Assembly: GCA_903835275.1 (NCBI GenBank)
Contig: CAILMK010000635.1
Location: forward strand, 1-13,949
Direction: 5' to 3'
Length of the DNA stretch: 13,949 nucleotides
From: an uncultured bacterium
GTDB lineage: Bacteria; Bacteroidota; Bacteroidia; CAILMK01
Below are positions 1 to 13,545 of this stretch, piece by piece. The position numbers and the translations under genes are program-made. The notes under the pieces are model-generated. The model saw only the letters and a list, made by a program, of their open reading frames with translations. It ran no database searches and was not told the origin of the DNA. Every line of letters starts with the position of its first letter. Position 1 is the stretch's first letter.

Positions 1-135
1 AAAGCAGCAGCAAAGCCGGCAGCAAAGAAAGCAGCTCCTAAAAAAGCAGCTCCTAAAAAAGCAGCAGCAAAGAAAGCAGCTCCAGCAAAGAAAGCAGCAG
101 CTAAGCCAAAAGCTAAAGCAGCAGCTAAGCCAAAG
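1..135 (+). repeat. Low-complexity Lys/Ala/Pro codon repeat inside the SWIB gene
   Basis: The DNA is built from degenerate units such as aaagcagctcct and aagaaagcagca, encoding basic AAKKAAP-type repeats. Such tracts are prone to slippage, so the number of units probably varies between strains. The left edge is cut by the window. Confidence 0.7.
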
Positions 136-393
136 GTGAAGAGGAAACCTAATGCAGCGTTCATGAAACCAATGACTATTGGTGCAGTGTTACACCCTGT
201 AGTTGGTACCGGTCCTCTTCCAAGAACAGAAGTGACCAAGAAAGTTTGGGAGTACATCAAGAAACACAAACTTCAGGACGCTAAGGAAAGAAGGAACATC
301 AATGCTGACTTAAACCTCCAAAAAGTATTTGGTGGAAAGAAAACAGTAAACATGTTCGAAATGACTAAAATGATTAACGCTCACCTTAAATAA
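1..393 (+). CDS. SWIB/MDM2-domain protein with H1-like Lys/Ala/Pro tail (5' partial)
   Basis: The reading frame is open from base 1, so the gene begins upstream of the window; 130 residues are visible. The first ~50 are almost only Lys, Ala and Pro (AAKKAAPKK-type units), resembling bacterial histone-H1-like tails. Residues ~51-130 form a SWIB/MDM2 fold: the opening FMKPMTIG, the LPRTEVTKKVWEYIKKHKLQD segment (split here as LPRTEVTKK + VWEYIKKHKLQD), the NINADLNLQKVFGG segment, and a C-terminal helix with MFEMTKMINAHL. A GTG at 136 could be read as a start but would remove the tail that the frame clearly encodes. Stand-alone SWIB proteins are known in Chlamydiae and Bacteroidota; a nucleoid- or DNA-associated role is inferred from the basic tail, and the exact function is unknown. 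The gene ends at a strong terminator 23 bp downstream of the stop. Confidence 0.9.
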   Translation, partial: KAAAKPAAKKAAPKKAAPKKAAAKKAAPAKKAAAKPKAKAAAKPKVKRKPNAAFMKPMTIGAVLHPVVGTGPLPRTEVTKKVWEYIKKHKLQDAKERRNINADLNLQKVFGGKKTVNMFEMTKMINAHLK

Positions 394-506: not shown

Positions 507-2072
507 TCACTGCTTCTCGATTTTCTCTTCCTGGCTGATTTTGCCTGAAGTTAACCTCAGGATATACTTACCCGCAGGCAAACCAGGAAATGCGATCCTG
601 AGCGTATTGGAGTGGTTCGGAGCATAGGTTTTGCTGAACTGCTGCCGACCCTGAATATCGTAAACGCTGATTTGAATACTTTCCGTCGTTGCCTGCAGAA
701 ATTCAATTTTTAGTTCGTCGGCAAATGGGTTGGGAGCAACCTTAAAGAATTTCGTTGCCGGGGCTTTAAAGGCATTTACCCCTGAAAAAATTGAAAGTGC
801 AGCTTTATTAAAATAGATCTCCGGAAAAGTCCCTTTAAGACCGGCCCAGCAGGAATGAATACTATCGTTACTTAAGGATGTACCTATAAAATCATTTCCC
901 TTGCTCAGGTTTATTGATTTGGAAGTATCTGAATTGAGTTTGATATTGGCACTGAAACTTTTCCCCGCATCGGTGGAAACTGCCGAATAAATATCAAATG
1001 CAGCCATTGAACCATTGCCCGTATTCCTTCTATCTCGCCAGCTTATTCCATAAGTTCCGGAGGCGGAAAATCCACCCCAAACCATGTCCTGTCCTTTTCC
1101 GTTCGATTTTGTATCGTCATTTACGCGAACTGCTTTGCTCCAGCTTTTTCCATAATTGGATGAATATGCGGAATAGATATCCGGGTCACCGTTTATATTA
1201 TCCACCCACGAAATAACAATATTGGAAGCATTGGAAGGATTGGCAGCAAGTGTATATCCTGCCTGGTACAGGCTATCAGTAACTGAGCTCGAGGCAGTGA
1301 AACTATCAATGACTGTATAATTGAAACTTCCGCCTCCATCGGTTGAGCGAAGCAGGATCAACCTTGCATACAAGCTTGATTTTATATGATAGGAATAATA
1401 AGCAGTATATAAACTTCCGTCCGGAGCCACTGTTGGAATGGCAAGGTTATTTTCTATAAGGTCTGAAGGGATAATGCTGTCGAGGAGTTTTATTCCACTC
1501 CATGTTTTTCCTTCATCATCGGAACTGCGTATCCATACATGATGGGGCTTGGCACCTACATCCACACTTTTCATGCATACATAAATCCGTCCGTCGTATT
1601 TCCCCCCTGAATTATCAATAGCCAGCCAAGGGCGGTCAATGGGTTTGTCAGGCTTCACAGTACCATCTGATACCTTTGAGGGACTGCTCCAATTTTGTCC
1701 TCCATCCGATGAATTCATTATATAAATTGCTCCGGAATCCTTATTGGGTTTATAATCTATATAAGTAAAGAATACTTTTCCGCCTTTTGTAAAAGCCAGT
1801 CCTGGATCCGCACAAGTATATTTTGGATGTGCATGTGCCACCGTTTGAGGAGCGCTCCAAGTCTTGCCGCCGTCCCCGGAGTAACTCGTTTTCATTTGTA
1901 TATAGGTAGTGGAGGCGCTCATCCATGCAGCTACAATATTGGAAGCATCATTGGGGTTTACTGCCAGACTGGGTTCGGAATCAAAGTAGGGATAATTAGA
2001 TACATTAACGTCCTGCGCATTGGCAATCATCACAGAAAAGAGTATCGTCAATGCTGAAAGTAAATACTTCAT
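507..2072 (-). CDS. Secreted Asp-box (BNR) sialidase-fold protein with T9SS type A sorting domain
   Basis: 521 residues. Residues 1-20 form a signal peptide ending MIANAQ, probably cleaved near Q20. Six Asp-box motifs (S-x-D-x-G-x-x-W/F) occur at about 63-72, 119-128, 182-191, 242-250, 303-311 and 364-373, for example SSDGGQNW and SSDDEGKTW, spaced 50-60 residues apart as expected of a six-bladed beta-propeller. Residues ~443-521 form a Por_Secre_tail domain (VAPNPFADEL, then SVYDIQGR, then LPAGKYILRL), which directs export through the T9SS and surface attachment or release. The fold resembles exo-sialidases and other BNR proteins, but I cannot identify the sialidase FRIP motif or the arginine triad, so enzymatic activity is unproven; a binding or structural role is equally possible. 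It is convergent with the SWIB gene and divergent from the sigma operon, with its own promoter region. Confidence 0.9.
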   Translation of the reverse strand: MKYLLSALTILFSVMIANAQDVNVSNYPYFDSEPSLAVNPNDASNIVAAWMSASTTYIQMKTSYSGDGGKTWSAPQTVAHAHPKYTCADPGLAFTKGGKVFFTYIDYKPNKDSGAIYIMNSSDGGQNWSSPSKVSDGTVKPDKPIDRPWLAIDNSGGKYDGRIYVCMKSVDVGAKPHHVWIRSSDDEGKTWSGIKLLDSIIPSDLIENNLAIPTVAPDGSLYTAYYSYHIKSSLYARLILLRSTDGGGSFNYTVIDSFTASSSVTDSLYQAGYTLAANPSNASNIVISWVDNINGDPDIYSAYSSNYGKSWSKAVRVNDDTKSNGKGQDMVWGGFSASGTYGISWRDRRNTGNGSMAAFDIYSAVSTDAGKSFSANIKLNSDTSKSINLSKGNDFIGTSLSNDSIHSCWAGLKGTFPEIYFNKAALSIFSGVNAFKAPATKFFKVAPNPFADELKIEFLQATTESIQISVYDIQGRQQFSKTYAPNHSNTLRIAFPGLPAGKYILRLTSGKISQEEKIEKQ

Positions 2073-2121: not shown

Positions 2122-2224
2122 CATGCCCATGGTTCATTTCAATAAATCCTGACATTATTTGCAACCATATTAACTTTTGCCGTCTATGCTATTGAAAGTT
2201 CAGTATTAATTAGGTTAAATATTA

Positions 2225-2256: not shown

Positions 2257-2814
2257 GTGACCGAATCAGAACTCATCAGCAGATGCAGGAAAAAGGACAG
2301 GGTAGCACAGGAGCAACTCTTTCGCCTCCATTCGGGCAGCATGATGGGAATATGCGTCCGCTATTCAAGGGACAGGGATGAAGCCAGGGACCTGCTTAAC
2401 GATGGGTTTATCAAGGTTTTCACAAGTATTGAATCTTTCAGGGGTGATAGTGCCGTTAAAACGTGGATGTCGCGGATTTTTGTGAACACCTGTCTCACGC
2501 ACCTCAAGGATAAGTATAAAAAGTACAGGCTTATTGATGAGGATGAGGATTTTGCAGCAGAAGAGGAGGAAGTGGATGATAGTATCCTGAACGAAATAAG
2601 TTCAGAAGAGGCCTTGGAAATGGTACAGCAATTACCGGATAAATACAGGCTCATCATAAATATGTACAGTATAGATGGATACACACATAAAATGATTGCC
2701 GGACACCTTGGGATTTCCGAAGGTACTTCCAAATCACAATTATCCAGGGCGCGGCAATTGTTACTTAAAACCATCGAGCTAAAACGTAAGAAAAATGAAA
2801 AAGCAAGAAAATAA
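2257..2814 (+). CDS. ECF-type RNA polymerase sigma factor (sigma-70 family)
   Basis: 185 residues, the usual ECF length. Residues ~18-88 are sigma region 2: LFRLHSGSMMG opening, SRDRDEARDLLNDGFIKVF (core binding), and FRGDSAVKTWMSRIFVN (-10 recognition). An acidic linker (about 94-108, DEDEDFAAEEEEVDD) separates it from region 4 at ~118-172 (LPDKYRLIINMY, then a helix-turn-helix GYTHKMIAGHLGISEGTSKS, and QLSRARQLL). The start is a GTG at 2257; it is preferred because the next in-frame ATG (about 2341) would remove the start of region 2. The 3' end overlaps the next gene by 20 bp, so the two are probably translationally coupled. It is the first gene of the five-gene operon. ECF sigma factors redirect RNA polymerase to a small regulon, normally under an adjacent anti-sigma factor; the regulon is not known here. 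Confidence 0.93.
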   Translation: MTESELISRCRKKDRVAQEQLFRLHSGSMMGICVRYSRDRDEARDLLNDGFIKVFTSIESFRGDSAVKTWMSRIFVNTCLTHLKDKYKKYRLIDEDEDFAAEEEEVDDSILNEISSEEALEMVQQLPDKYRLIINMYSIDGYTHKMIAGHLGISEGTSKSQLSRARQLLLKTIELKRKKNEKARK

Positions 2815-4381
2815 ACTGGACGCTTTGCTCAGGCAAAAGCTGGAAGGCCTTGAGGGGGACGTAGGCCCTCAGGACTGGAATGCTATCAGCGAGCGGCTGG
2901 ATAATGAGCAAAAAAAGCCCGGAGGCTTCTTTGCAGGCAATCGCAAATACTTTGCTGCGGCAGCATTGGCTTTGTTAATAACGTTTGCAGGTTATTATGT
3001 TGGCAGGAGGAATTCATCGGGGGACCAGACCGGCAAAGCCGAAATCAAAACTACGGGCGAATCTGTTAACAAGGAAAACATCGCATCTTCTTCAAATGAT
3101 AACACGGACAAGAATAATTTAAACAAGCAATTTAATAAGTTTGCAACACCAAATACCAAAACTGATAATACATCACAATCCACTTTAACCACTAACACAA
3201 CTGCGACCGGCGATCAATCAGGAAAAACAAATCCAAACCTTAGCCAAGCCAAGCAGCAAACCATAACTTTAAGGAGGGATGGGGAGCAAAATACCAAAAC
3301 TGTAATTGCCGGAAATAGAAGCCATGCCAGCACTAATTCGGCGACCCATCCCTCTCATTTTTTAAATGAGAGCCCATCCAGCTCCACTACGGATAAGACC
3401 TCAAAGTCCGTAAATCCTGAAAATCCGACACAACTGATGTCGGATAATAATTCCGCTCAAAAGTCCCAAACGGACGAAAAAGCGATCCGTCCGGAAAAAA
3501 ACACTTATTCATCCATTTCACCGGATTCTGCAAAAACTTCAGCACAATCAAATGCCTTAACGGTTTCACCTGAAACTGTAAAGGATTCCGCGAATGCTAA
3601 AAAGCAACTTGCGCAAAATTCACCGAAAGCAGATAGTGCTACCAACGACACTAAAAAACCTGCTTTAAATATCCCCGCTAAAACAGGGCGCATTACATTT
3701 TATGTATCACTGGGAGGAGATTATTCCAATCATTCCCTAAGTGCTAATACTGCACAGGCTGATCGTACGCATGAAGATTATATGCACCTTCGCTCCAGCC
3801 AGGAAAGAGGCGGCATAGGTTACAATTTCAGTGCGGGAGCGGAATTCAAACCCTGGAAAAATATTCTTTTCCAAACCGGCATCGGCTACACGCGTATTAG
3901 TGAAAATGTCAATTATAATTTTGTAAACAATAAAATCCCTGTAGTGGATTCTGCCAGTGGAAAAATCCTTGCATATATAACTGTCCCGAACGGGACGCGT
4001 ACCCAATACACCCATACCAATACTTACAATTATGTAAGCGTACCTTTTCTGGCAGGATATACTTTTAAAATGGGCGACAGGTTTTCACTCAGTTTGAAAG
4101 CAGGAGGCACCATGATGATCTTATCCTCTGTAAATGGGGAAATCCTGAAAGCCGATGACCTTACTCTTCAATCACTCGATGATAAAAAACAATTGCGAAA
4201 TTTGAACTTTAGTTACGATGGGCGCGCTGAACTTGAATATGCACTTTCAAGATATATTTCCCTTGCCTTTGGTACCAGCTACAGGCAGATGGGAAATTCA
4301 TTATTGAATGCAGATGCTACAGCGGGATTTAAGCCATCTGGAGCGGGAGCATATATAAGTATGAAACTAAAGACTTTTTAA
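2795..4381 (+). CDS. Putative dual-membrane-spanning anti-sigma factor (inner-membrane helix + outer-membrane beta-barrel)
   Basis: 528 residues without a signal peptide. Residues 1-50 are a charged cytoplasmic segment with LDALLRQKLEGLE and a PQDW motif (W28) followed by an amphipathic ISERL helix, the pattern found at the N-terminus of such proteins next to ECF sigma genes. Residues ~52-69 are a single transmembrane helix (YFAAAALALLITFAGYYVG). Residues ~72-297 are a Ser/Thr/Asn/Lys-rich, probably disordered linker, long enough to cross the periplasm. Residues ~299-528 alternate polar and hydrophobic strands (ITFYVSLGGDY, IGYNFSAGAEF, LFQTGIGYTRI, VSVPFLAGYTF and so on), about eight strands, ending in the terminal Phe typical of outer-membrane barrels. 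The 20-bp overlap with the sigma gene supports a sigma/anti-sigma pair. Anti-sigma function is inferred from context and architecture; I recall the same layout in the Dma family of Bacteroides thetaiotaomicron. The alternative is a plain porin-family protein. Confidence 0.8.
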   Translation: MKKQENKLDALLRQKLEGLEGDVGPQDWNAISERLDNEQKKPGGFFAGNRKYFAAAALALLITFAGYYVGRRNSSGDQTGKAEIKTTGESVNKENIASSSNDNTDKNNLNKQFNKFATPNTKTDNTSQSTLTTNTTATGDQSGKTNPNLSQAKQQTITLRRDGEQNTKTVIAGNRSHASTNSATHPSHFLNESPSSSTTDKTSKSVNPENPTQLMSDNNSAQKSQTDEKAIRPEKNTYSSISPDSAKTSAQSNALTVSPETVKDSANAKKQLAQNSPKADSATNDTKKPALNIPAKTGRITFYVSLGGDYSNHSLSANTAQADRTHEDYMHLRSSQERGGIGYNFSAGAEFKPWKNILFQTGIGYTRISENVNYNFVNNKIPVVDSASGKILAYITVPNGTRTQYTHTNTYNYVSVPFLAGYTFKMGDRFSLSLKAGGTMMILSSVNGEILKADDLTLQSLDDKKQLRNLNFSYDGRAELEYALSRYISLAFGTSYRQMGNSLLNADATAGFKPSGAGAYISMKLKTF

Positions 4382-4408: not shown

Positions 4409-7024
4409 ATGAGAATAGTATCAAAATTTAAAGTAGCCATCCTGGCAGGCCTCACCAGCCTGCTATTATTGCTTAATAGCGGAAATGTGAAAGGACAGAT
4501 GGTGCGCCCTATGGATATGGGCTTACCCGATACTGCCCTTGCAACGTGTACAGATTCAGCCGGAAATTATTATGTATTGTATAACTTACACAAGCCTGGA
4601 ACTCCCTATGTCGGTTCTTGCAGGGTGGCAGTGTGGAACGGAACGTTCTGGTCAACATATCCGCCAATAAATTATTATCATATAAATAATAATTCCATTG
4701 TACACAAGGGAATGGCTATTTATCAAAATGAATTATACGTATCCGTTGCAGATTCTGGCAAAAACAGATTGATCCGCTGGCATAATGATGGTTGGGACAG
4801 TATTCCGGATGCCTTGAATAAATCATTTTCGGATATGTTTGTAGCAAACAATCATCTTATTGTTGTTGGGGGATTTGATAGTTTGTACCATAAACACCCC
4901 AGTCATAATATAGCAGCGTGGAACGGTTCTTATTGGGATACTACCATTGCAGGTGTAAAAATATCCGGCAAACTTGCAGATCTTGATTTTAATCCTGGCA
5001 ATCCTTATTGTGTCTATAAAAATAAACTTTATGTAGCTGCTAATATCGCCCCTAAGAAAGGGGAATACCAGAATGTATTGGCTTCCTGGACGGGTACTTC
5101 CTGGACCACTATTACAAACCCATCAGGGATGGATTCTTTTCCCAGCACTCATTTTATTTATGATCTTGCCGCTACGAGCAACAGGTTATATGCATTTTCT
5201 TATAATTATACTGGTTCCATTACGGGACCGGATAGTTTTTTTAATGAATGGAATGATTCTTCAGCCAAGCCTTTCTGGACAAAAATACAATCCCATCAAA
5301 ACGGATTTTATGTTAGCTATTGTACTTCCTATAAAAACAGGTTGGTAGTATATGGTAATAGCACTTCATGGTTCTCCATTTTGAATGGTACCACCTTGAA
5401 ATCAATAATAAAACCGGGGGATGGATATTATTTGCTATCGTCACCTGCAAGGGAATACCATGGAAAATTATGGTTTCTGGAGCTGTGTTCAGACGGCAGT
5501 AAAATAAAATTCATAACATGGAATGGAAGTACCTGGCAGGCTTTAGGAGGTTTTTTTCCGCGCCCGAACTCAGGCTTTGATGTTCTTCCAATTTTGGACA
5601 CCACGACTAATCATTTATTTGTATCAGGGACTATTATATACTATGCCAATGTAAAGTTGAATTTTGTTGGTGAAATAGCGCCTTATTCGTATGTAAAAGG
5701 CAATGCTTACATTGATATGAATGGTAATTGCAAATTCGATTCAGGTGATGTTGCAGATAAATATGCAATTATAGAATCAACTACTAACAGCTTATATACC
5801 ATTACAGATTCTAACGGGGACTATACCTTATTTACTAATCCCGGATTTAACAATATTGTTATACATGCTAGAAAGTATTTAACTCAATCCTGTCCTTTAA
5901 TCGGAACGGATACTTTTACTTTAAGTGCAGACTCAGGAGTTTCCAATGTAAATTTTGCCTCTGTTTTCACTTCAAAAGTTCCGGACCTGAAAGTCAGTAT
6001 CAGTTGCAATACCGGATATCGTTTTCATCCAAGTATTGACCAAACTTTTTATATAACCTACGAAAATGTTGGCAGTGTTAACCTTTCAGGAAGAATCTAT
6101 TTTCAAAAGCCGAAACGACTGATAAATTTTTCTTCCAGTCCTGTGGCAGATTCATTTAATGATCCGATTGCTTCCTGGTCATTTAGTTCTTTAGCACCCG
6201 GAGATAAGAAGATCATCACGGTGAAACTACATGCTGATAAAGCCTTAAATTCAGGAGATAGTTTGGTTTTCTATGTTCGTTCAGATTATGGAATACTTGC
6301 CATTGATTCGGACAAGACCGATAACTTTGATACTCTCATTATGATTTCCGGTGATAGCCATGATCCTAATGGCAAGCAATCCTGCCCTCCTGCGGATATA
6401 ACGCAAAGCACGAAGGAAATAAAATACCATATAGATTTCCAGAATACCGGAACAACATCAGCATACCAGGTGGTAGTAATAGATACCATTGATGTGAATT
6501 TACCGCTTACTAAAGTGGTGATGAATTCAGCCAGTCACAAATACCGACTCGATATAAACAACAATGTATTCCGCTGGACTTTTGAAAATATAAATCTTGC
6601 TGACGCTAAGGATGATTCAGTAAATAGCCGCGGCTACATCAGCTATACCACGCAAATAAAACCCGGCCTTGCCGTGGGTACGGAGATAAAGAACAAGGCA
6701 TATATATATTTTGATTATAATCCCCCGATGCCTACCAATCAAACCATGAATAAGATCGGAATCAAAACCTCTGAAATTAACCCGATAAAAATCAGCGAAT
6801 CCATAAATGTATATCCCAACCCTGCCAATGAAGAATTGATGATAGATAATCGCAGCCCTGAAACTAAAAAGTTTATCATTTACAATTCCGTTGGACAAGC
6901 AATGACGCAATTGCAAATTGGGAAGGACCAGCGCGAAATACTCAACACTACTGCTTTCCCCGCGGATATTTATTTTATCCGCGGAGAGAAAGGAGAATCA
7001 ACAAAATTTGTGATACAACATTAA
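4409..7024 (+). CDS. T9SS-exported multidomain surface protein, paralog 1 (WNG-repeat / SdrB-like / DUF7619-like)
   Basis: 871 residues. Signal peptide 1-30 (basic MRIVSKFK, hydrophobic core, VKGQ). Residues ~31-425 carry about six Trp-rich repeats (W76-W81, W124-W129, W171-W176, W227-W232, W281-W290, W371-W376; typically WNGxxW), each after a hydrophobic 'LYV' strand, suggesting a beta-propeller. Residues ~428-485 are an SdrD-B-like module with an acidic loop (DMNGNCKFDSGD) and Cys441/Cys494 that could pair. Residues ~526-643 are CARDB/DUF11-like; ~648-783 are DUF7619-like (SHDPNGKQ, FQNTGT, VVIDTIDVNLPL, YIYFDYN). Residues ~796-871 are the T9SS type A tail (VYPNPANEEL), where the usual FPAGIYF reads FPADIYF. 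It starts 27 bp after the barrel gene, so it is probably cotranscribed. A four-codon ORF at 4401-4412 overlaps its ATG. No enzymatic motif was seen; an adhesive or structural surface role is inferred. Confidence 0.9.
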   Translation: MRIVSKFKVAILAGLTSLLLLLNSGNVKGQMVRPMDMGLPDTALATCTDSAGNYYVLYNLHKPGTPYVGSCRVAVWNGTFWSTYPPINYYHINNNSIVHKGMAIYQNELYVSVADSGKNRLIRWHNDGWDSIPDALNKSFSDMFVANNHLIVVGGFDSLYHKHPSHNIAAWNGSYWDTTIAGVKISGKLADLDFNPGNPYCVYKNKLYVAANIAPKKGEYQNVLASWTGTSWTTITNPSGMDSFPSTHFIYDLAATSNRLYAFSYNYTGSITGPDSFFNEWNDSSAKPFWTKIQSHQNGFYVSYCTSYKNRLVVYGNSTSWFSILNGTTLKSIIKPGDGYYLLSSPAREYHGKLWFLELCSDGSKIKFITWNGSTWQALGGFFPRPNSGFDVLPILDTTTNHLFVSGTIIYYANVKLNFVGEIAPYSYVKGNAYIDMNGNCKFDSGDVADKYAIIESTTNSLYTITDSNGDYTLFTNPGFNNIVIHARKYLTQSCPLIGTDTFTLSADSGVSNVNFASVFTSKVPDLKVSISCNTGYRFHPSIDQTFYITYENVGSVNLSGRIYFQKPKRLINFSSSPVADSFNDPIASWSFSSLAPGDKKIITVKLHADKALNSGDSLVFYVRSDYGILAIDSDKTDNFDTLIMISGDSHDPNGKQSCPPADITQSTKEIKYHIDFQNTGTTSAYQVVVIDTIDVNLPLTKVVMNSASHKYRLDINNNVFRWTFENINLADAKDDSVNSRGYISYTTQIKPGLAVGTEIKNKAYIYFDYNPPMPTNQTMNKIGIKTSEINPIKISESINVYPNPANEELMIDNRSPETKKFIIYNSVGQAMTQLQIGKDQREILNTTAFPADIYFIRGEKGESTKFVIQH
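6815..7024 (+). repeat. T9SS-tail repeat, copy 1 of 3
   Basis: This 210-bp 3' end of paralog 1 recurs at 9457-9666 and 12011-12220. By eye I count about 16 base differences from copy 2, nearly all at third codon positions. Confidence 0.8.
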
Positions 7025-7062
7025 TATGTGTTTTTTTGATGAACTATTTAACAAGTAAAACC

Positions 7063-9666
7063 ATGAGCAAATCAAATATTATGAAGTCAGCAATGATCTG
7101 CGGAATCACTACAATGATTCTTTTGCTAAATGCAGGAAATGCAAAGGCACAACTTGTGCGTCCTATGGATAAGGGAGTGCCGGATTCTGTAGCGGCTACT
7201 TGCCTGGATACGGCAGGAAATTATTACGTAGCGTATAATGTGCGTGATACCAGTGTCCACTTTCAATTCAACGGATATATATACACGGATACATTTGCGG
7301 TGGCAGTATGGAACGGAACATTCTGGTCCGAGTATCCGCATTTTAATTCTAATGCCGGATATGGAATGAATATTTTGGTCTATCAGGGCGAGCTATACAT
7401 ACAGTGTAGTTATAAATCAGGTGTTGTAGTGATGCGCTGGCATTCAGATAACTGGGATACTGTTTCGAAACAAATGAATGGTACCGTTAATCAAATGTTT
7501 TTGTATAATAAGAACCTTTTATTCACAGGATCATTTACGAAAGCAGGCGGACAAATTGCCAATAGAATTGCAGCATGGAATGGAACAAAAATTGATAGTT
7601 TGGGAGGAGGAATAGCCAATGGTATGAAAATTATAAATATAAATACCACTTGTATTCATAAAAACACTTTAATGGTCGGAGCCATCCTTGATAGTGCGGG
7701 AAGACATAATCACAGGATCGTGCAATGGAATGGAGCTTCGTGGAATGTATTACCTTATATGGTTTCCCAGCAGGATTCTGAAGAGGTGAATGCAATGATT
7801 TCTGCGAATGGTAGATTATATGTCTCAAGGCAATCTTATATCAAGAAATACGGATATGATGATGATTCTTTAATCTACGAATGGAATGGTGCTGCCTGGA
7901 ATAAAATGCAATTGCCCATTGCCGTTTATCCGTTTAGTAGCTATTTATTTTCTACGTACAATAATAATCTTATTGTTTTTGGACAAGACAAGGCCTATAA
8001 AATGTTTTGTTTAAGTTTAGATAGCAGTAGTTGGAGTGTCCTATCAAGAAATATGTATGCGCAAAGATGGAATTATTCTTATGGAATTCAAAACAGCTCT
8101 CCTGTTGTAGTAGAATATAAAGGAAAATTGATTGTAAATAACGGAGCAGGCTTTTCTATTTGGGATGGCACCACCTGGTCAAGCTTTCAGGGGTTTTCCA
8201 AATCATTCGGATCATATTACGGTCTCTATTTTATAGATGCCAATGCGCAACATTTGTATTTTGCCGGTAATTTTAATGTTTTGGCAAAGCGTCCAATAAA
8301 TTATGTTGGGGAATTTACTACGCATGTTTCATCTTTCTCCGGAAAGGTTTATATAGATCTGGATTCCAATTGCAAATATGATGTAACTGATATTCCGGCA
8401 AGAAATGCATTTGTAAAAATTGCACCGAACGGATACATTACAAATACGGATTCTGATGGAAATTATACTGTTTTTTCGGATACTCCAAATTGTACGGTAA
8501 CTGCGATACTTCCTAAATACGGCGTTTCTTCATGCCCTTCTTCAGGTTCGGCTACTTTCAACTTCCCCAGGGATTCAAGTGTACAAAATGTGGATTTTGC
8601 CGTTAAGTTCAATGAGAAAATTAATGATTTGAAAATGACTTTGAGCTGTAACATGGGGTATAGATTTCATCCAATGATAAAACAATATTTTTATTTGACA
8701 TATGAAAATATTGGTACTACTATCCAGTCAGGAAAAATATATTTCAAAAAACCTGTACGACTGATTAATTTTAGTGCCTCGCCCAAGGAAGATTCAGTTA
8801 ACAGCGCCATTGCCTATTGGTCATTTTACAAGCTTTATCCGGGAGATAAAAGGTTAATTACAGTTGAACTTAATGCTGACAAAGATTTAAAAAAAGGGGA
8901 TAGCCTGGTATTTAATACCTGGTTTGATTCTGCAACCACGGCAAAAGATTCGGATAAAAGCAATAACTCCGATACCCTTGTGATGGTGTCCGGTGATAGT
9001 CATGATCCGAATAATAAACAATCTTATCCGCCTGCGGATATAACGCAAAGCACTAAGGAAATTAAATACCATATAGAATTCCAGAATACGGGAAATACAG
9101 AGGCTCGTCAAATTGTAGTGATTGATACTATTGATGCAAATCTGCCGCTGACGGAAGTGATCATGAATTCATCCAGCCATAAATACCGTCTGGATATAAA
9201 TAACAATGTATTCCGTTGGACGTTCAATGACATTAATCTTTCCGATAGCACCAGTGATGAAAAACACAGTCATGGTTTTATCAGCTACACTGCCAAAATA
9301 AAACAAGGCATTGCTGCAGGTACGGCTATAAAAAACAAAGCGTATATATACTTTGATTATAATAAGCCCATGCCTACCAATCAAACCATGAATAAGATCG
9401 GAATCAAAACTTCCGAGATTGAACCTATAAAAATTAGCGAATCCATAAATGTATTTCCCAACCCTGCCAATGAAGAATTGATGATAGACAACCGCAGCCC
9501 TGAAACTAAAAAGTTTATCATTTATAATTCGGTCGGACAAGCAATGACGCAATTGCAAATTGGAAAAGACCAGCGTGAAATACTCAACACTACTGCTTTC
9601 CCCGCGGGTATCTATTTTATCCGCGGTGAGAAAGGAGAATCAGGAAAGTTTGTGATACAGCATTAG
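7063..9666 (+). CDS. T9SS-exported multidomain surface protein, paralog 2
   Basis: 867 residues from the ATG at 7063. In-frame alternatives are TTG 7036 and ATG 7039; 7063 is chosen because it gives a 30-residue signal peptide (ending GNAKAQ, followed by LVRPMDKG) that aligns residue for residue with the 30-residue signal peptide and MVRPMDMG of paralog 1. The WNG-type repeats are at W83-W88, W126-W131, W172-I177, W222-W227, W274-W279 and W367-W372. An SdrB-like module is at ~426-482 (DLDSNCKYDVTD; Cys437/Cys491), a CARDB/DUF11-like module at ~521-640, a DUF7619-like module at ~644-781 (GDSHDPNNKQ, YIYFDYNKP) and a T9SS tail at ~793-867 (VFPNPANEEL, FPAGIYF). It begins 38 bp after paralog 1 and is its closest relative here. 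It is probably an extracellular or surface protein of unknown specific role. Confidence 0.88.
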   Translation: MSKSNIMKSAMICGITTMILLLNAGNAKAQLVRPMDKGVPDSVAATCLDTAGNYYVAYNVRDTSVHFQFNGYIYTDTFAVAVWNGTFWSEYPHFNSNAGYGMNILVYQGELYIQCSYKSGVVVMRWHSDNWDTVSKQMNGTVNQMFLYNKNLLFTGSFTKAGGQIANRIAAWNGTKIDSLGGGIANGMKIININTTCIHKNTLMVGAILDSAGRHNHRIVQWNGASWNVLPYMVSQQDSEEVNAMISANGRLYVSRQSYIKKYGYDDDSLIYEWNGAAWNKMQLPIAVYPFSSYLFSTYNNNLIVFGQDKAYKMFCLSLDSSSWSVLSRNMYAQRWNYSYGIQNSSPVVVEYKGKLIVNNGAGFSIWDGTTWSSFQGFSKSFGSYYGLYFIDANAQHLYFAGNFNVLAKRPINYVGEFTTHVSSFSGKVYIDLDSNCKYDVTDIPARNAFVKIAPNGYITNTDSDGNYTVFSDTPNCTVTAILPKYGVSSCPSSGSATFNFPRDSSVQNVDFAVKFNEKINDLKMTLSCNMGYRFHPMIKQYFYLTYENIGTTIQSGKIYFKKPVRLINFSASPKEDSVNSAIAYWSFYKLYPGDKRLITVELNADKDLKKGDSLVFNTWFDSATTAKDSDKSNNSDTLVMVSGDSHDPNNKQSYPPADITQSTKEIKYHIEFQNTGNTEARQIVVIDTIDANLPLTEVIMNSSSHKYRLDINNNVFRWTFNDINLSDSTSDEKHSHGFISYTAKIKQGIAAGTAIKNKAYIYFDYNKPMPTNQTMNKIGIKTSEIEPIKISESINVFPNPANEELMIDNRSPETKKFIIYNSVGQAMTQLQIGKDQREILNTTAFPAGIYFIRGEKGESGKFVIQH
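9457..9666 (+). repeat. T9SS-tail repeat, copy 2 of 3
   Basis: 210-bp 3' end of paralog 2, same length and in register with the copies at 6815-7024 and 12011-12220. Relative to copy 1 the coding changes are D to G in FPADIYF/FPAGIYF and T to G near the end. Confidence 0.8.
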
Positions 9667-9751
9667 GAATTAGAATTAGCCGGAAAAACTGCAAAGACTC
9701 GTTCCAAGGAGGAACATTTTGAACAAATTGTAAAATTAAAAAATTAAAGGC

Positions 9752-12220
9752 ATGGAAAATTTTTACAAATGTGTACTATCACTAAAAGCAGGTATTATGC
9801 TATTATTCCTGTTGGGCATTGCAGCACCTTCACACGCGCAAGTATTCAAGGCTTTGGGCGATGAGCAAGGAACTGTGGGAGTACCCAATACCATTTATGC
9901 TTCCTGTAGTAACGGTGATGATGTGTACGTAGCGTACGGAGTTCAAAGTGGAAAAAATTATTTAGCATATTTTGCCAAATGGAATGGAATTTTTTGGGAT
10001 ACGTTACCATCATTGCTATTAATGGGATCTCAAACAAATGGGTTAACCGCTCCTAATGTAATTAATTCAATGTCATTTTATAAGAATGAGCTTTATGTGG
10101 CAGGTGCATTTGATAGTGTTCATAATGTTCCTTTGGCATTGGGATTGATAAAATGGAATGGCAGTTCATGGACTAATGTTAAAATGAACACGTCAAATGG
10201 CCAGAGCATCTTAAGTGGGCTTATAATATATAATGATAAGTTATATGTATCCGCCTTTACCGGATGGATGACTGGAAAACGGCGTAATGTTTCATCCTGG
10301 GATGGAACAAAATGGGATAGTATACCCGGACTTCCATTTTATGATGTAGGTGCCATGGCAGTATACAACAATAGTTTATACCTTACGGACTTGACTCCCA
10401 CCGATCACTATATGATGGGCTATGTATGGAATGATACTTCCCTAAAGAAAATTCAGTCTGTTTACGAACAAGGTGGTATAAGTGCACTCGATACTTTTAA
10501 TGGGAATATAGTTGCTTGTGGCACGGATTCATATAGTAATATAATAAATGTAAAGCTATTTAATGGAACCAAGTGGACTGATATTTCTAAGGGTTTAAAA
10601 AATTATTATTGTGGGACGCAAACAGACCGGATATTCTATTTTAAGGAGTTTGGCGGGCGCTTATGGGCGAGCGGAAATTTTTATGATAATACCAAAAATA
10701 TCCAGAGACATCTGGCTGTTTATGATGGTTCCTCATGGAATGTCTTTCCCGATACGATCGGAGCAGGCTACCCTTATCAACTTTTAAGAACGGATAACAA
10801 GCTTTTTGTCATGGGAGGTTTCAAAACAATTGGTAATCAAACAGTAAATAATATTGCTGAGATAGGAGGAAAAATAGTAAAGATAGGCGGGAAAGTTTAT
10901 TTTGACAGAGACAGTAATTGTGTATTTACCAAAGGTGACATTCCACTGGTAAATCGCCTCGTATACATAGATAATGGAGCATACAATACCAATACAGATG
11001 ACAGCGGGAATTACAATTTGTATGTTGATAGCGGAATGCATACAATACACGTTTCCGGCCAAAAGGATTTAATTCAAATGTGTCCGTCAGGAAATGCTGA
11101 CATTACCCTGAATGCTGATCCCGATAGCAGCTATTCAGCAATGAATTTTGCTTTCAAATTAAAGCCCGGAATACAGGATCTTTCAGTTGCAATTTCTCCA
11201 ATGGAAAGGCTGAGGCCCGGACGAATTGTAACTTATGTATTAAGTTATGAAAACCTTGGAAGTATAACTATTAACAATGCGTATATACAAATGAGAGTTG
11301 ATAAACGCCTGAGCGGTCTGATTGCTGATTCAACTATTTTTTCTTCCAATGATTCCACATATACATTTCATCTTAAGGGAATAAAATCTCTTGAAAGAGG
11401 ACAAATTAAATTTGATGTAACCGCGTCGACACAGTTAAAGCAGGGGCAAATTGTTACATTCTTTATCAGGGCGGATTCAGGTTTGGTGGGAAAAGATAGT
11501 GACCTGACCAATAATTTTGATACACTCAACCAGAACGTATCAAACTCCCATGATCCCAATGGAAAATTCGTTTCTCCTGACGGGGCAATTGCTGCCAATA
11601 CCTCGCAGATAAAATATACTATTTTATTCCAGAATACCGGAAATGGAAAGGCATATAAAGTGGAAGTGCTGGATACAATAGATACCAATCTCCCATTGAC
11701 GGAAGTAACTATGAATTCAGCCAGTCATAAATATGTTTTGCATATTAATAATAATGTAATGAGATGGACATTTGATAACATTAATCTGGCAGACAGTACC
11801 ACTGATGAAGAACACAGTCACGGATATATATCATTTAGCACAAAGCTTAAAAAAGGAATGGCTGTGGGTACGGAAATAAAAAACAAGGCCTATATATATT
11901 TCGATTATAATGATCCTGTACCTACCAATCAAACAATGAATAAGATTACCGCTGCAGTTATTACATCTATTGCAGAAAAAGTGAATATCTCTCGCGGCAT
12001 CAATCTTTACCCCAACCCGGCCAATGAAGAATTAAAGATAGACAACCGCAGCCCTGAAACTAAAAAGTTTATCATTTATAATTCCGTGGGTCAGGCAATG
12101 ACGCAATTGCAAATCGGGAAGGATCAGCGTGAGATACTCAACACTGCTGCTTTCCCTGCTGGTATCTATTTTATCCGCGGTGAGAAAGGCGAATCAATCA
12201 AGTTCGTAATTCAACATTAA
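9752..12220 (+). CDS. T9SS-exported multidomain surface protein, paralog 3 (divergent N-terminus)
   Basis: 822 residues. Signal peptide ends APSHAQ (residue 30). The WNG-type repeats are W77-W82, W135-W140, W183-W188, W226-L231, F270-W275 and Y324-W329; the last three have lost one aromatic or Trp position. An SdrB-like module lies at ~378-435 (DRDSNCVFTKGD; Cys390/Cys444), CARDB/DUF11-like at ~474-592, DUF7619-like at ~597-731 (SNSHDPNGK, FQNTGN, YIYFDYNDP) and a T9SS tail at ~748-822 nearly identical to those of the two upstream paralogs. The N-terminal half differs much more from paralogs 1 and 2 than they do from each other, so it is the most diverged copy. The CARDB-like cysteine of paralogs 1 and 2 (C533, C529) is absent. 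It lies 85 bp after paralog 2 and ends 16 bp before the operon terminator. Confidence 0.9.
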   Translation: MENFYKCVLSLKAGIMLLFLLGIAAPSHAQVFKALGDEQGTVGVPNTIYASCSNGDDVYVAYGVQSGKNYLAYFAKWNGIFWDTLPSLLLMGSQTNGLTAPNVINSMSFYKNELYVAGAFDSVHNVPLALGLIKWNGSSWTNVKMNTSNGQSILSGLIIYNDKLYVSAFTGWMTGKRRNVSSWDGTKWDSIPGLPFYDVGAMAVYNNSLYLTDLTPTDHYMMGYVWNDTSLKKIQSVYEQGGISALDTFNGNIVACGTDSYSNIINVKLFNGTKWTDISKGLKNYYCGTQTDRIFYFKEFGGRLWASGNFYDNTKNIQRHLAVYDGSSWNVFPDTIGAGYPYQLLRTDNKLFVMGGFKTIGNQTVNNIAEIGGKIVKIGGKVYFDRDSNCVFTKGDIPLVNRLVYIDNGAYNTNTDDSGNYNLYVDSGMHTIHVSGQKDLIQMCPSGNADITLNADPDSSYSAMNFAFKLKPGIQDLSVAISPMERLRPGRIVTYVLSYENLGSITINNAYIQMRVDKRLSGLIADSTIFSSNDSTYTFHLKGIKSLERGQIKFDVTASTQLKQGQIVTFFIRADSGLVGKDSDLTNNFDTLNQNVSNSHDPNGKFVSPDGAIAANTSQIKYTILFQNTGNGKAYKVEVLDTIDTNLPLTEVTMNSASHKYVLHINNNVMRWTFDNINLADSTTDEEHSHGYISFSTKLKKGMAVGTEIKNKAYIYFDYNDPVPTNQTMNKITAAVITSIAEKVNISRGINLYPNPANEELKIDNRSPETKKFIIYNSVGQAMTQLQIGKDQREILNTAAFPAGIYFIRGEKGESIKFVIQH
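12011..12220 (+). repeat. T9SS-tail repeat, copy 3 of 3
   Basis: 210-bp 3' end of paralog 3. The protein differs from copies 1 and 2 at only a few positions (such as EELK for EELM, NTAA for NTTA) although the N-terminal halves of the genes have diverged strongly. Confidence 0.8.
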
Positions 12221-12236
12221 TAGCTCTGTAGACAGG

Positions 12237-12264
12237 AGGGCGGCTGAAAAGCCGCCCTTTTTTT
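12237..12264 (+). terminator. Intrinsic terminator of the sigma / surface-protein operon
   Basis: An 8-bp GC-rich stem (agggcggc, 12237-12244, with gccgccct, 12251-12258), loop TGAAAA, then a run of T to 12264. It lies 16 bp after the stop of paralog 3 and is the only convincing plus-strand terminator between 2257 and 12264, supporting a single five-gene transcript. Confidence 0.92.
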
Positions 12265-12327: not shown

Positions 12328-12639
12328 TTACTCAACATCGCCTTGCCATGCTAGGATACCACCGAGCATATTGTGTACCTTTTCAAATCCCTGCGTTTGC
12401 ATGTACTTGCAGGCATTGCTGCTTCTCGCTCCGGACCTGCAATAGATAAAATATTCTGTTTCGCGATCCAGTTCTTCAATCTGTTCATGGAATTCATGCC
12501 CCATGATGTTTATGTTTAATGCGCCCGGTAAATGGCCACCTTCAAATTCTTCTTCGGTACGTACATCCAGCAATATAGCACCGGGAGTATTTTTATATGT
12601 TTCGCCAAATTCTGCGGCAGTAAGATCTACATTTTCCAT
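12328..12639 (-). CDS. Single-domain rhodanese-like sulfurtransferase
   Basis: 103 residues, the size of single-domain rhodaneses (GlpE/PspE type) and cytoplasmic, with no signal peptide. It contains the LLDVRTEEEFEGGHLPGALN segment (residues 23-42), the catalytic loop C67-RSGARS with the persulfide-forming cysteine, and the C-terminal VHNMLGGILAW motif that completes the fold. The expected chemistry is transfer of a sulfane sulfur from thiosulfate or a protein persulfide to an acceptor; the natural donor and acceptor are unknown. It lies 24 bp downstream of the MscS-like gene on the same strand and is probably cotranscribed with it. It ends convergently with the surface-protein operon. Confidence 0.93.
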   Translation of the reverse strand: MENVDLTAAEFGETYKNTPGAILLDVRTEEEFEGGHLPGALNINIMGHEFHEQIEELDRETEYFIYCRSGARSSNACKYMQTQGFEKVHNMLGGILAWQGDVE

Positions 12640-12663: not shown

Positions 12664-13545
12664 TTAATCTTCTTTATCTGTCCCTGTGTGTACATGGATT
12701 TCCGTTGAATCAGTGGTAAAACTAATTTTTGCCTTTTCAAACTCTAACGCTATTTTTTCATAGACGGAATATTGCACTTCACCCAAGTTAATTCTTTTTA
12801 CCCAGAATAAAAAATCCATGTTTATTCCGCCTGAACTGATATCATGTATTCCGATAACAGGCTTGGGGTCTTTCAGGATCTTCTCATCAGAATCAACGAT
12901 GGACTGAAGGATTTTTTTAGCCTCCATAATATTGGATCCATGGGCAATGGGGATTTTTAAATCTATTCTTCGGTTATCTTCAGCGGTATAATTGATAACA
13001 TCCTTATTGGAAAGGCTACCATTCGGAATAACCACTTTTTTATTTTCCGGTGTTATAATGGTTGTATATAAGATCTGAATTTCGCGGACGCTGCCCTTGT
13101 GTCCTCCGGCTTCAATAAAATCACCTACTCTGAATGGTTTGAACATAAGGATCAGTACACCACCTGCAAAGTTTGAAAGGCTGCCTTGCAATGCAAGAGC
13201 CACCGCAAGTCCTACGGCACCGAGTGCGGTGATGAAGGATGTTGTATTAAAGCCCATGAATGAAAGCACACTCAGGATGAGGGTTGCCTTCAGGAAAATG
13301 GAAAGAACCGAACGTACAAAAGGCACCAGTGATTTATCAACGTTCCTTGCCATGAGGAGGGTAGTCAATCCATGGCTGAGCTTGCGGATGAGCCACAAAC
13401 CAATACTCAGGGCTATAATGCCTACAATGATCCGCGGACCGTAATGGACGGCCATTTGCTCCAGCGTTTCCAGATAAAAATCCAAACTTTTCAGTTTTGA
13501 ACTAAAGGAAGTGGATTGCAATATAGTAGAGAGAAAAAAGTGCAT
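12664..13545 (-). CDS. MscS-family small-conductance mechanosensitive channel
   Basis: 293 residues, close to the ~286 of E. coli MscS. Three transmembrane helices are seen at about 36-54, 78-97 and 102-134. TM3 carries the family signature (ALGAVGLAVALALQGSLSNF, then AGGVLILMFKPFRVGDFI), which forms the pore and its kink. The soluble C-terminal beta domain follows (VREIQILYTTIITPENKKVV, then IPNGSLSN, residues ~153-180) and an alpha/beta vestibule to residue ~283. The role is release of solutes through the inner membrane when hypo-osmotic shock raises membrane tension. The start at 13545 gives the normal N-terminal length; an internal Met at 31 would sit just before TM1. It is probably cotranscribed with the downstream rhodanese gene. 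Confidence 0.94.
   Translation of the reverse strand: MHFFLSTILQSTSFSSKLKSLDFYLETLEQMAVHYGPRIIVGIIALSIGLWLIRKLSHGLTTLLMARNVDKSLVPFVRSVLSIFLKATLILSVLSFMGFNTTSFITALGAVGLAVALALQGSLSNFAGGVLILMFKPFRVGDFIEAGGHKGSVREIQILYTTIITPENKKVVIPNGSLSNKDVINYTAEDNRRIDLKIPIAHGSNIMEAKKILQSIVDSDEKILKDPKPVIGIHDISSGGINMDFLFWVKRINLGEVQYSVYEKIALEFEKAKISFTTDSTEIHVHTGTDKED

Follow-up and report, generated by a model that had tools for sequence, protein, structure and literature searches.

It is, to our knowledge, an open question how bacteria with a T9SS detect the condition of their surface and adjust secretion accordingly. The FecIR- and SusCD-type systems of sigma factor, anti-sigma factor and TonB-dependent transducer pass a surface signal over two membranes to an ECF sigma factor, using separate inner- and outer-membrane proteins. 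We analysed a stretch of 13,949 nucleotides from an uncultured member of the Bacteroidota (contig CAILMK010000635.1, hereafter the window), in which, unlike in those systems, one chain would do both jobs. A sequence-only reading of the window had described an ECF sigma factor gene overlapped by a second gene, and had proposed that the product of the second gene spans both membranes and carries a surface signal directly to the sigma factor. Our analysis confirms the observation on the gene pair and partly supports the interpretation.

Table 1. Positions in the window of the features discussed in the text.
Feature	Position	Strand	Evidence
Predicted sigma-dependent promoter, TGCAACCA-N14-GTCTA	2160..2186	+	strict-element copy at 2160-2184
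ECF sigma factor gene, 185 aa	2257..2814	+	GTG start; Sigma70_r2 E 9e-13, Sigma70_r4_2 E 9.9e-16
Dma-type anti-sigma gene, 528 aa	2795..4381	+	ATG at 2795; 20-bp overlap with the sigma gene
N-terminal domain, residues 1-49, presumed sigma-binding	2795..2941	+	PQDW at 25-28; Asp9 and Trp28 invariant in 17 rows
Transmembrane helix, residues 50-69	2942..3001	+	hydrophobicity and AlphaFold2
Disordered tether, residues 73-298 (about 226 residues)	3011..3688	+	composition and AlphaFold2 coil
Outer-membrane barrel, residues 299-528, C-terminal Phe	3689..4378	+	Pfam, AlphaFold2, Foldseek
T9SS cargo protein 1, 871 aa	4409..7024	+	W-repeat half, DUF7619, type A sorting domain
T9SS cargo protein 2, 876 aa	7036..9666	+	W-repeat half, DUF7619, type A sorting tail
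T9SS cargo protein 3, 822 aa	9752..12220	+	W-repeat half, DUF7619, type A sorting tail
Terminator-like hairpin after the third cargo gene	12234..12261	+	12 pairs, 7 of them G-C, then a T-rich tail

The overlap of 20 bp stands, with the sigma stop at 2814 and the ATG of the second gene at 2795 (Table 1). The sigma protein resembles solved ECF sigma factors. In the 528-aa protein, hydrophobicity peaks in the 19-residue stretch that begins at residue 52. The AlphaFold2 model of this protein is weak (mean pLDDT 45, from an alignment of five rows), with pLDDT of 72-85 in the barrel strand blocks, 38-55 in the other barrel blocks and in the 40s for residues 1-50; it places helices at residues 5-17, 25-37 and 50-69 of the N-terminal region. 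The tether (residues 73-298) is coil in the model and is composed of 15% Ser, 15% Thr and 12% Asn, the residues ILVFWYM together making up 11.5%. Residues 299-528 score 29.5 bits against OMP_b-brl, above the cut-off of 28.7, and 25.9 bits against OMP_b-brl_2, below the cut-off of 27.

Eight barrel strands are modelled (299-311, 340-354, 357-384, 391-425, 430-444, 471-483, 488-502 and 515-526), and the best solved matches of the model in Foldseek are OmpA barrels (1bxw, E 3.3e-6, TM by target 0.67). By sequence, no PDB chain matches the 528-aa protein at E up to 1. The layout first proposed, an N-terminus with a PxxW motif, one helix, about 225 disordered residues and a C-terminal barrel ending in Phe, is thus borne out, and so is the barrel itself. 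Chance does not account for this order of parts, which is found again downstream of ECF sigma genes in the class at large.

The four parts are those by which Dma proteins are defined: an N-terminal sigma-binding domain, a transmembrane helix, a disordered tether and a C-terminal barrel (PMC13088901, available text). The sequence-only reading had named such a family from Bacteroides thetaiotaomicron, rightly so, since the window's layout equals the description in the available text of that paper. As described there, the Dma1/Das1 and Dma2/Das2 systems likewise set an ECF sigma factor beside an anti-sigma factor with the same parts. The Dma concept is already in print, in papers of 2024 (PNAS) and 2026 (PMC13088901, available text), and another member is by itself ordinary. 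In contrast to the window, T9SS cargo is not mentioned for Dma1/Das1 and Dma2/Das2 in the available text of PMC13088901. What is new here relative to the known Dma proteins is the dedicated T9SS cargo, a sigma branch of its own and a shared promoter element.

The gene pair, for which a search across Bacteroidota had been suggested, is widespread in the class. We built a profile of N-terminal domain and helix from 17 sequences, drawn from the window, its relatives and the order and class to which it belongs. It matches at least 232 of 295 class genomes at E up to 1e-3, with the best 20 candidates or fewer scored per genome. All of 60 profile-match regions, picked from the upper part of the list and outside the window's order, have an ECF sigma gene directly upstream, which overlaps in 43; two of these regions come from genomes that contributed profile rows. 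Within the window's order, a downstream frame is present at each of the 30 top sigma loci and a Trp motif lies near the N-terminus, outside the helix, in 27 of them.

Across 175 sigma/anti-sigma pairs, Trp falls within residues 19-42 in 166 and a helix-like stretch starts at residues 35-75 in 157, frequencies that are partly a product of selection because most pairs came from the profile. Anti-sigma factors of this layout are common in the class. In the same 175 pairs, sigma distances and N-domain distances correlate (r 0.479, permuted maximum 0.082). Such co-divergence agrees with binding of one by the other; co-inheritance in one operon could give the same correlation.

Other searches returned little. 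Protein searches of a 5.8-billion set gave only 5, 2 and 4 relatives, the 5 from a search that scored the best 7998 candidates by shared words. None of the 215 stretches from a first contig scan with the anti-sigma alignment was confirmed, and a search for plasmids found none.

Next to the pair lie three tandem cargo genes, the first starting 27 bp past it. Por_Secre_tail and TIGR04183 are above cut-off in all three products. The N-terminus is hydrophobic in cargo 1, and by eye in cargo 2 and 3. The window's genome also contains the T9SS component SprA (SprA_N, 537.6 bits). The window's cargo proteins thereby show the marks of T9SS cargo: a signal peptide, a C-terminal sorting domain and a T9SS in the genome. 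Throughout a set of 21 cargo proteins, DUF7619 is found together with a T9SS tail, and Lys605, Asp641 and Asn711 (alignment numbering) are invariant. DUF7619 is listed among the intramolecular isopeptide-bond domains in the available text of PMC12617251. The first half may form a propeller, as its W-repeats suggest, with Pfam propeller matches in two (Rax2) and one (DUF5122) of the 21; its alignment is too variable for searching.

The three paralogs of the window (4409-12220) share 73-76% DNA identity in their C-terminal parts and little in their N-terminal halves, with nearly identical sorting tails. This pattern would fit either an outer half that has diversified or a tail subject to gene conversion. 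A consensus scan found 18 terminator-like sites, against 8.7 in shuffles, and the one after the third cargo gene has the most G-C pairs.

Beyond this block, a divergent gene at 507-2072 (minus strand) encodes a BNR-repeat protein with a T9SS sorting tail. The other neighbours are ordinary: a SWIB-domain protein with a lysine/alanine-rich N-terminus at 1-393 (plus strand), a rhodanese at 12328-12639 and an MscS-type channel at 12664-13545 (both minus strand).

The order of sigma gene, Dma-type gene and cargo gene recurs. Among the matches listed, 15 of 17 full-length cargo loci have the three in a row and two stand alone (in genomes G009 and G012). Six further regions with relatives of about 800 aa comprise four operons, one probable operon at a contig end and one region without. 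None of 14 cargo relatives that match in the C-terminal part only lies behind a sigma-Dma pair, and none of eight DUF7619 loci of the order, the solitary G009 locus included, has the operon. The distance from the Dma stop to the cargo start is -4 to +27 bp in 18 of 19 operons, and the nineteenth has a broken Dma frame. At L206:3906-5250 (genome G249), an operon that is intact in other respects has its Dma gene broken into two frames, of 142 and 309 aa. Nine of 18 scanned Dma proteins match OMP_b-brl_2 and three match OMP_b-brl (E up to 0.01).

Carriers of the operon are found in class families f1, f4, f14, f41, f56 and f61. The class survey took the best 3 candidates per genome, and the cargo-locus counts are lower bounds because only these were scored and not all matches are listed. 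The distribution is patchy: among the best 3 candidates per genome, the operon occurs in at least 2 of 12 genomes of the order and was not seen in the one other genome of the genus. One record titled Sphingomonadales (Pseudomonadota; L275) carries a Bacteroidota-type sigma-Dma-T9SS cargo operon, and its label is probably wrong.

The sigma factors of these operons group together. When 104 sigma proteins are placed in a tree, the 19 from operons form one side of a single branch (support 77), which takes 1 change of label against 17.9 in shuffles. We then added named GTDB relatives, which gave 80 loci, 77 with the N-terminal domain beside a sigma gene and 13 with cargo (6 duplicates were dropped). 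In the resulting tree of 178 rows, all 29 operon sigmas fall into a set of 33 rows (support 97), with 3 label changes against 27.1 in shuffles; the other members of the set are L258, L276 and two rows cut by contig ends. FastTree on the same 178 rows gave 7 label changes against 27.1 in shuffles, a count in which four contig-end rows were scored as being without cargo.

The operons also share a sequence upstream of the sigma gene. A TGCAACC motif found in 29 operon upstream regions reaches 11.9 bits, against 6.1-6.9 in five shuffles. The strict element TGCAACCW-N14/15-GTC precedes 18 of the 29 operon sigma genes from which the motif was itself learned, none of 145 other sigma genes and 3 of 4 of undetermined status; it is absent from 11 of the 29 operons. 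A looser form of the element is found at 21 of 29 operon sigma genes and at 9 of the 145 others.

In 12 operon-bearing genomes we counted 28 sites, against 11 for the reversed pattern: 9 of the 28 precede sigma genes, 7 stand 15-87 bp upstream of other genes and 12 do neither. A T9SS tail is present in 4 of the 7 other products, and one, cut at a contig end, has GEVED and PKD domains; the remaining two, one of them cut, matched no Pfam family. In the window's own genome a wide regulon has little support, as one of four sites precedes a gene, namely the sigma gene. The window's minus strand, which carries the divergent BNR-repeat gene, has no copy of the element. The T9SS link suggested by the sequence-only reading is hence real, and through adjacency, sigma branch and promoter element it is stronger than could be seen from the window.

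Four operon genomes carry, just upstream of the sigma gene, a gene for a secreted protein of about 1,365-1,385 aa (L337:385-4539, L344:3607-7755, L345:888-4982 and L346:788-4939). The protein at L337 (genome G249) has a T9SS tail, and its gene has its own TGCAACC-GTC element.

A comparable arrangement with a different product is known. The EcfO-Reo pair of Phocaeicola vulgatus, first described from Bacteroides fragilis, also joins a sigma factor with an anti-sigma factor predicted to reach from the cytoplasm to the surface with an outer-membrane barrel, and its regulon includes surface proteins (PMC9308784 and PMC13114119, available text). According to the same texts, EcfO of P. vulgatus drives nigD surface lipoproteins, one nigD gene lying beside the pair by locus numbers; the surface products of EcfO-Reo are thus NigD lipoproteins and not T9SS cargo. 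Our sigma alignment, based on the window, retrieves sigma-Dma-NigD loci of Parabacteroides and Tannerella. A NigD-like third gene follows the anti-sigma gene in 23 of 24 scanned Tannerellaceae loci (out of 27), and two other scanned Bacteroidales third genes (L266, L284) have no NigD match. For 37 other third genes of class regions, a T9SS tail is found in 5 and a barrel family in 3. The third-gene slot that is NigD-like in Tannerellaceae is taken in the window's branch by a T9SS protein. This suggests a general rule by which Dma operons may have a third slot, for a NigD lipoprotein in one lineage and a T9SS surface protein in another.

What the sequences show directly is the architecture, the conservation of the operon, the grouping of its sigma factors in one branch and the promoter element that the operons share. 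From them we consider it likely that the locus encodes a Dma-type switch from envelope to cytoplasm, which autoregulates its own operon of T9SS surface proteins. By analogy with the known family and from the architecture, the N-terminal domain of the 528-aa protein would tie the ECF sigma factor to the inner membrane, and the same chain would end, by way of tether and barrel, in the outer membrane. The sigma factor would be freed by a change on the barrel side; the signal is a guess, and might be a ligand, envelope damage or the loss or arrival of a surface partner. Judging from the conserved sequence, the freed sigma factor would read TGCAACC-N14-GTC before its own gene. The predicted output is sigma factor and anti-sigma factor in larger amounts, together with a set of surface proteins that the T9SS exports and that carry an isopeptide-type domain. 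A few further genes, encoding other large surface proteins, are probably read by the sigma factor in related genomes as well.

The cargo might be more than an output of this switch. If the Dma barrel also had the cargo as its partner on the outside, the switch would be set by whether the cargo reaches the surface or is lost from it, and the circuit would report the status of secretion or of the surface. We regard this as unlikely, even though 19 operons have the cargo gene very closely spaced next to that for Dma, the cargo tracks one sigma branch, and the invariant Lys, Asp and Asn of the isopeptide-type domain would suit a load-bearing surface stalk. Co-transcription with the regulator is equally expected of an output gene, two full-length cargo genes are solitary and in the window a single Dma protein goes with three cargo copies that differ from one another. 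Furthermore, the adjacent nigD of P. vulgatus is known as a regulon output (PMC13114119 and PMC9308784, available text), a precedent that favours the cargo as output over the cargo as partner. Tentatively, and with similar doubt, a distinct ECF-Dma branch may have been wired to the T9SS such that the exported protein returns as barrel partner and one chain reports surface or secretion status to a transcription factor, closing the loop across both membranes.

The chain may also not stay whole. The first description of the protein had seen no evident signal peptide cleavage, a claim that is softer than it was put, since the residues T63-F64-A65 and G66 just after the helix are readable as signal-peptidase-like, with a possible cut between A65 and G66. 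A periplasmic cut, as in regulated anti-sigma proteolysis, would leave the barrel separate, and proteolysis rather than a continuous link would be the signal. The long disordered tether is a likely protease target, some lineages have a short N-domain-helix protein followed by a separate secreted gene, and the 3 third genes out of 37 with a barrel family point the same way. We nonetheless judge this form improbable: the relatives P0004 and P0005 do not conserve the cut site, the N-domain-helix part usually continues, by length, into a long C-terminal part (30 profile-match loci, 23 judged by length and not by barrel family) and the published Dma models take the protein as one chain (PMC13088901, available text).

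Finally, an ordinary Dma pair with a chance downstream neighbour, as might be expected where ECF-Dma pairs are very common and T9SS-tailed proteins are common (the tail being present in 5 of the 37 other third genes), is rejected as highly improbable in view of cargo adjacency at 15 of 17 loci against 0 of 14 C-terminal-only relatives, the 0 of 8 DUF7619 loci of the order, the one sigma branch in the trees and the promoter element at 18 of 29 against 0 of 145 sigma genes.

With the cargo as probable output of the Dma-type switch, the sigma-Dma-cargo operon and its own promoter element represent a short, testable path from surface to gene. It occurs in lineages distant from the gut Bacteroides that yielded the described Dma proteins. 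Among the titles and abstract openings of the mostly open-access literature searched, none describes a sigma-Dma-T9SS cargo operon.

The class also contains other anti-sigma-like forms. In a sister set (G000:C480 in the window's own genome, at L074:4663-5973 and also L052; L039, L042, L043, L044, L045, L051, L053, L060 and L061), the anti-sigma-like proteins have the N-terminal Trp motif and one transmembrane helix, and a CHU_C/T9SS type B sorting domain, mostly with PKD, replaces the barrel. Ten sister proteins chosen for their tails all match CHU_C at E 1.6e-4 or better, nine of them over the cut-off, and TIGR04131 is over the cut-off in six. Their sigma factors form one fork (support 84) in the 104-sigma tree. 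If such an anti-sigma factor keeps its helix, its T9SS sorting tail could let it report directly on T9SS engagement.

At L014:6644-8539 (genome G022), L038, L040 and L049, the anti-sigma-like gene that follows the ECF sigma gene carries the Trp-containing N-terminal motif in several tandem copies. A possible split form occurs at L110, L118, L127, L140 and L147, where an N-domain-helix protein of 222-283 aa, with no room for a barrel, is followed by a separate secreted gene.
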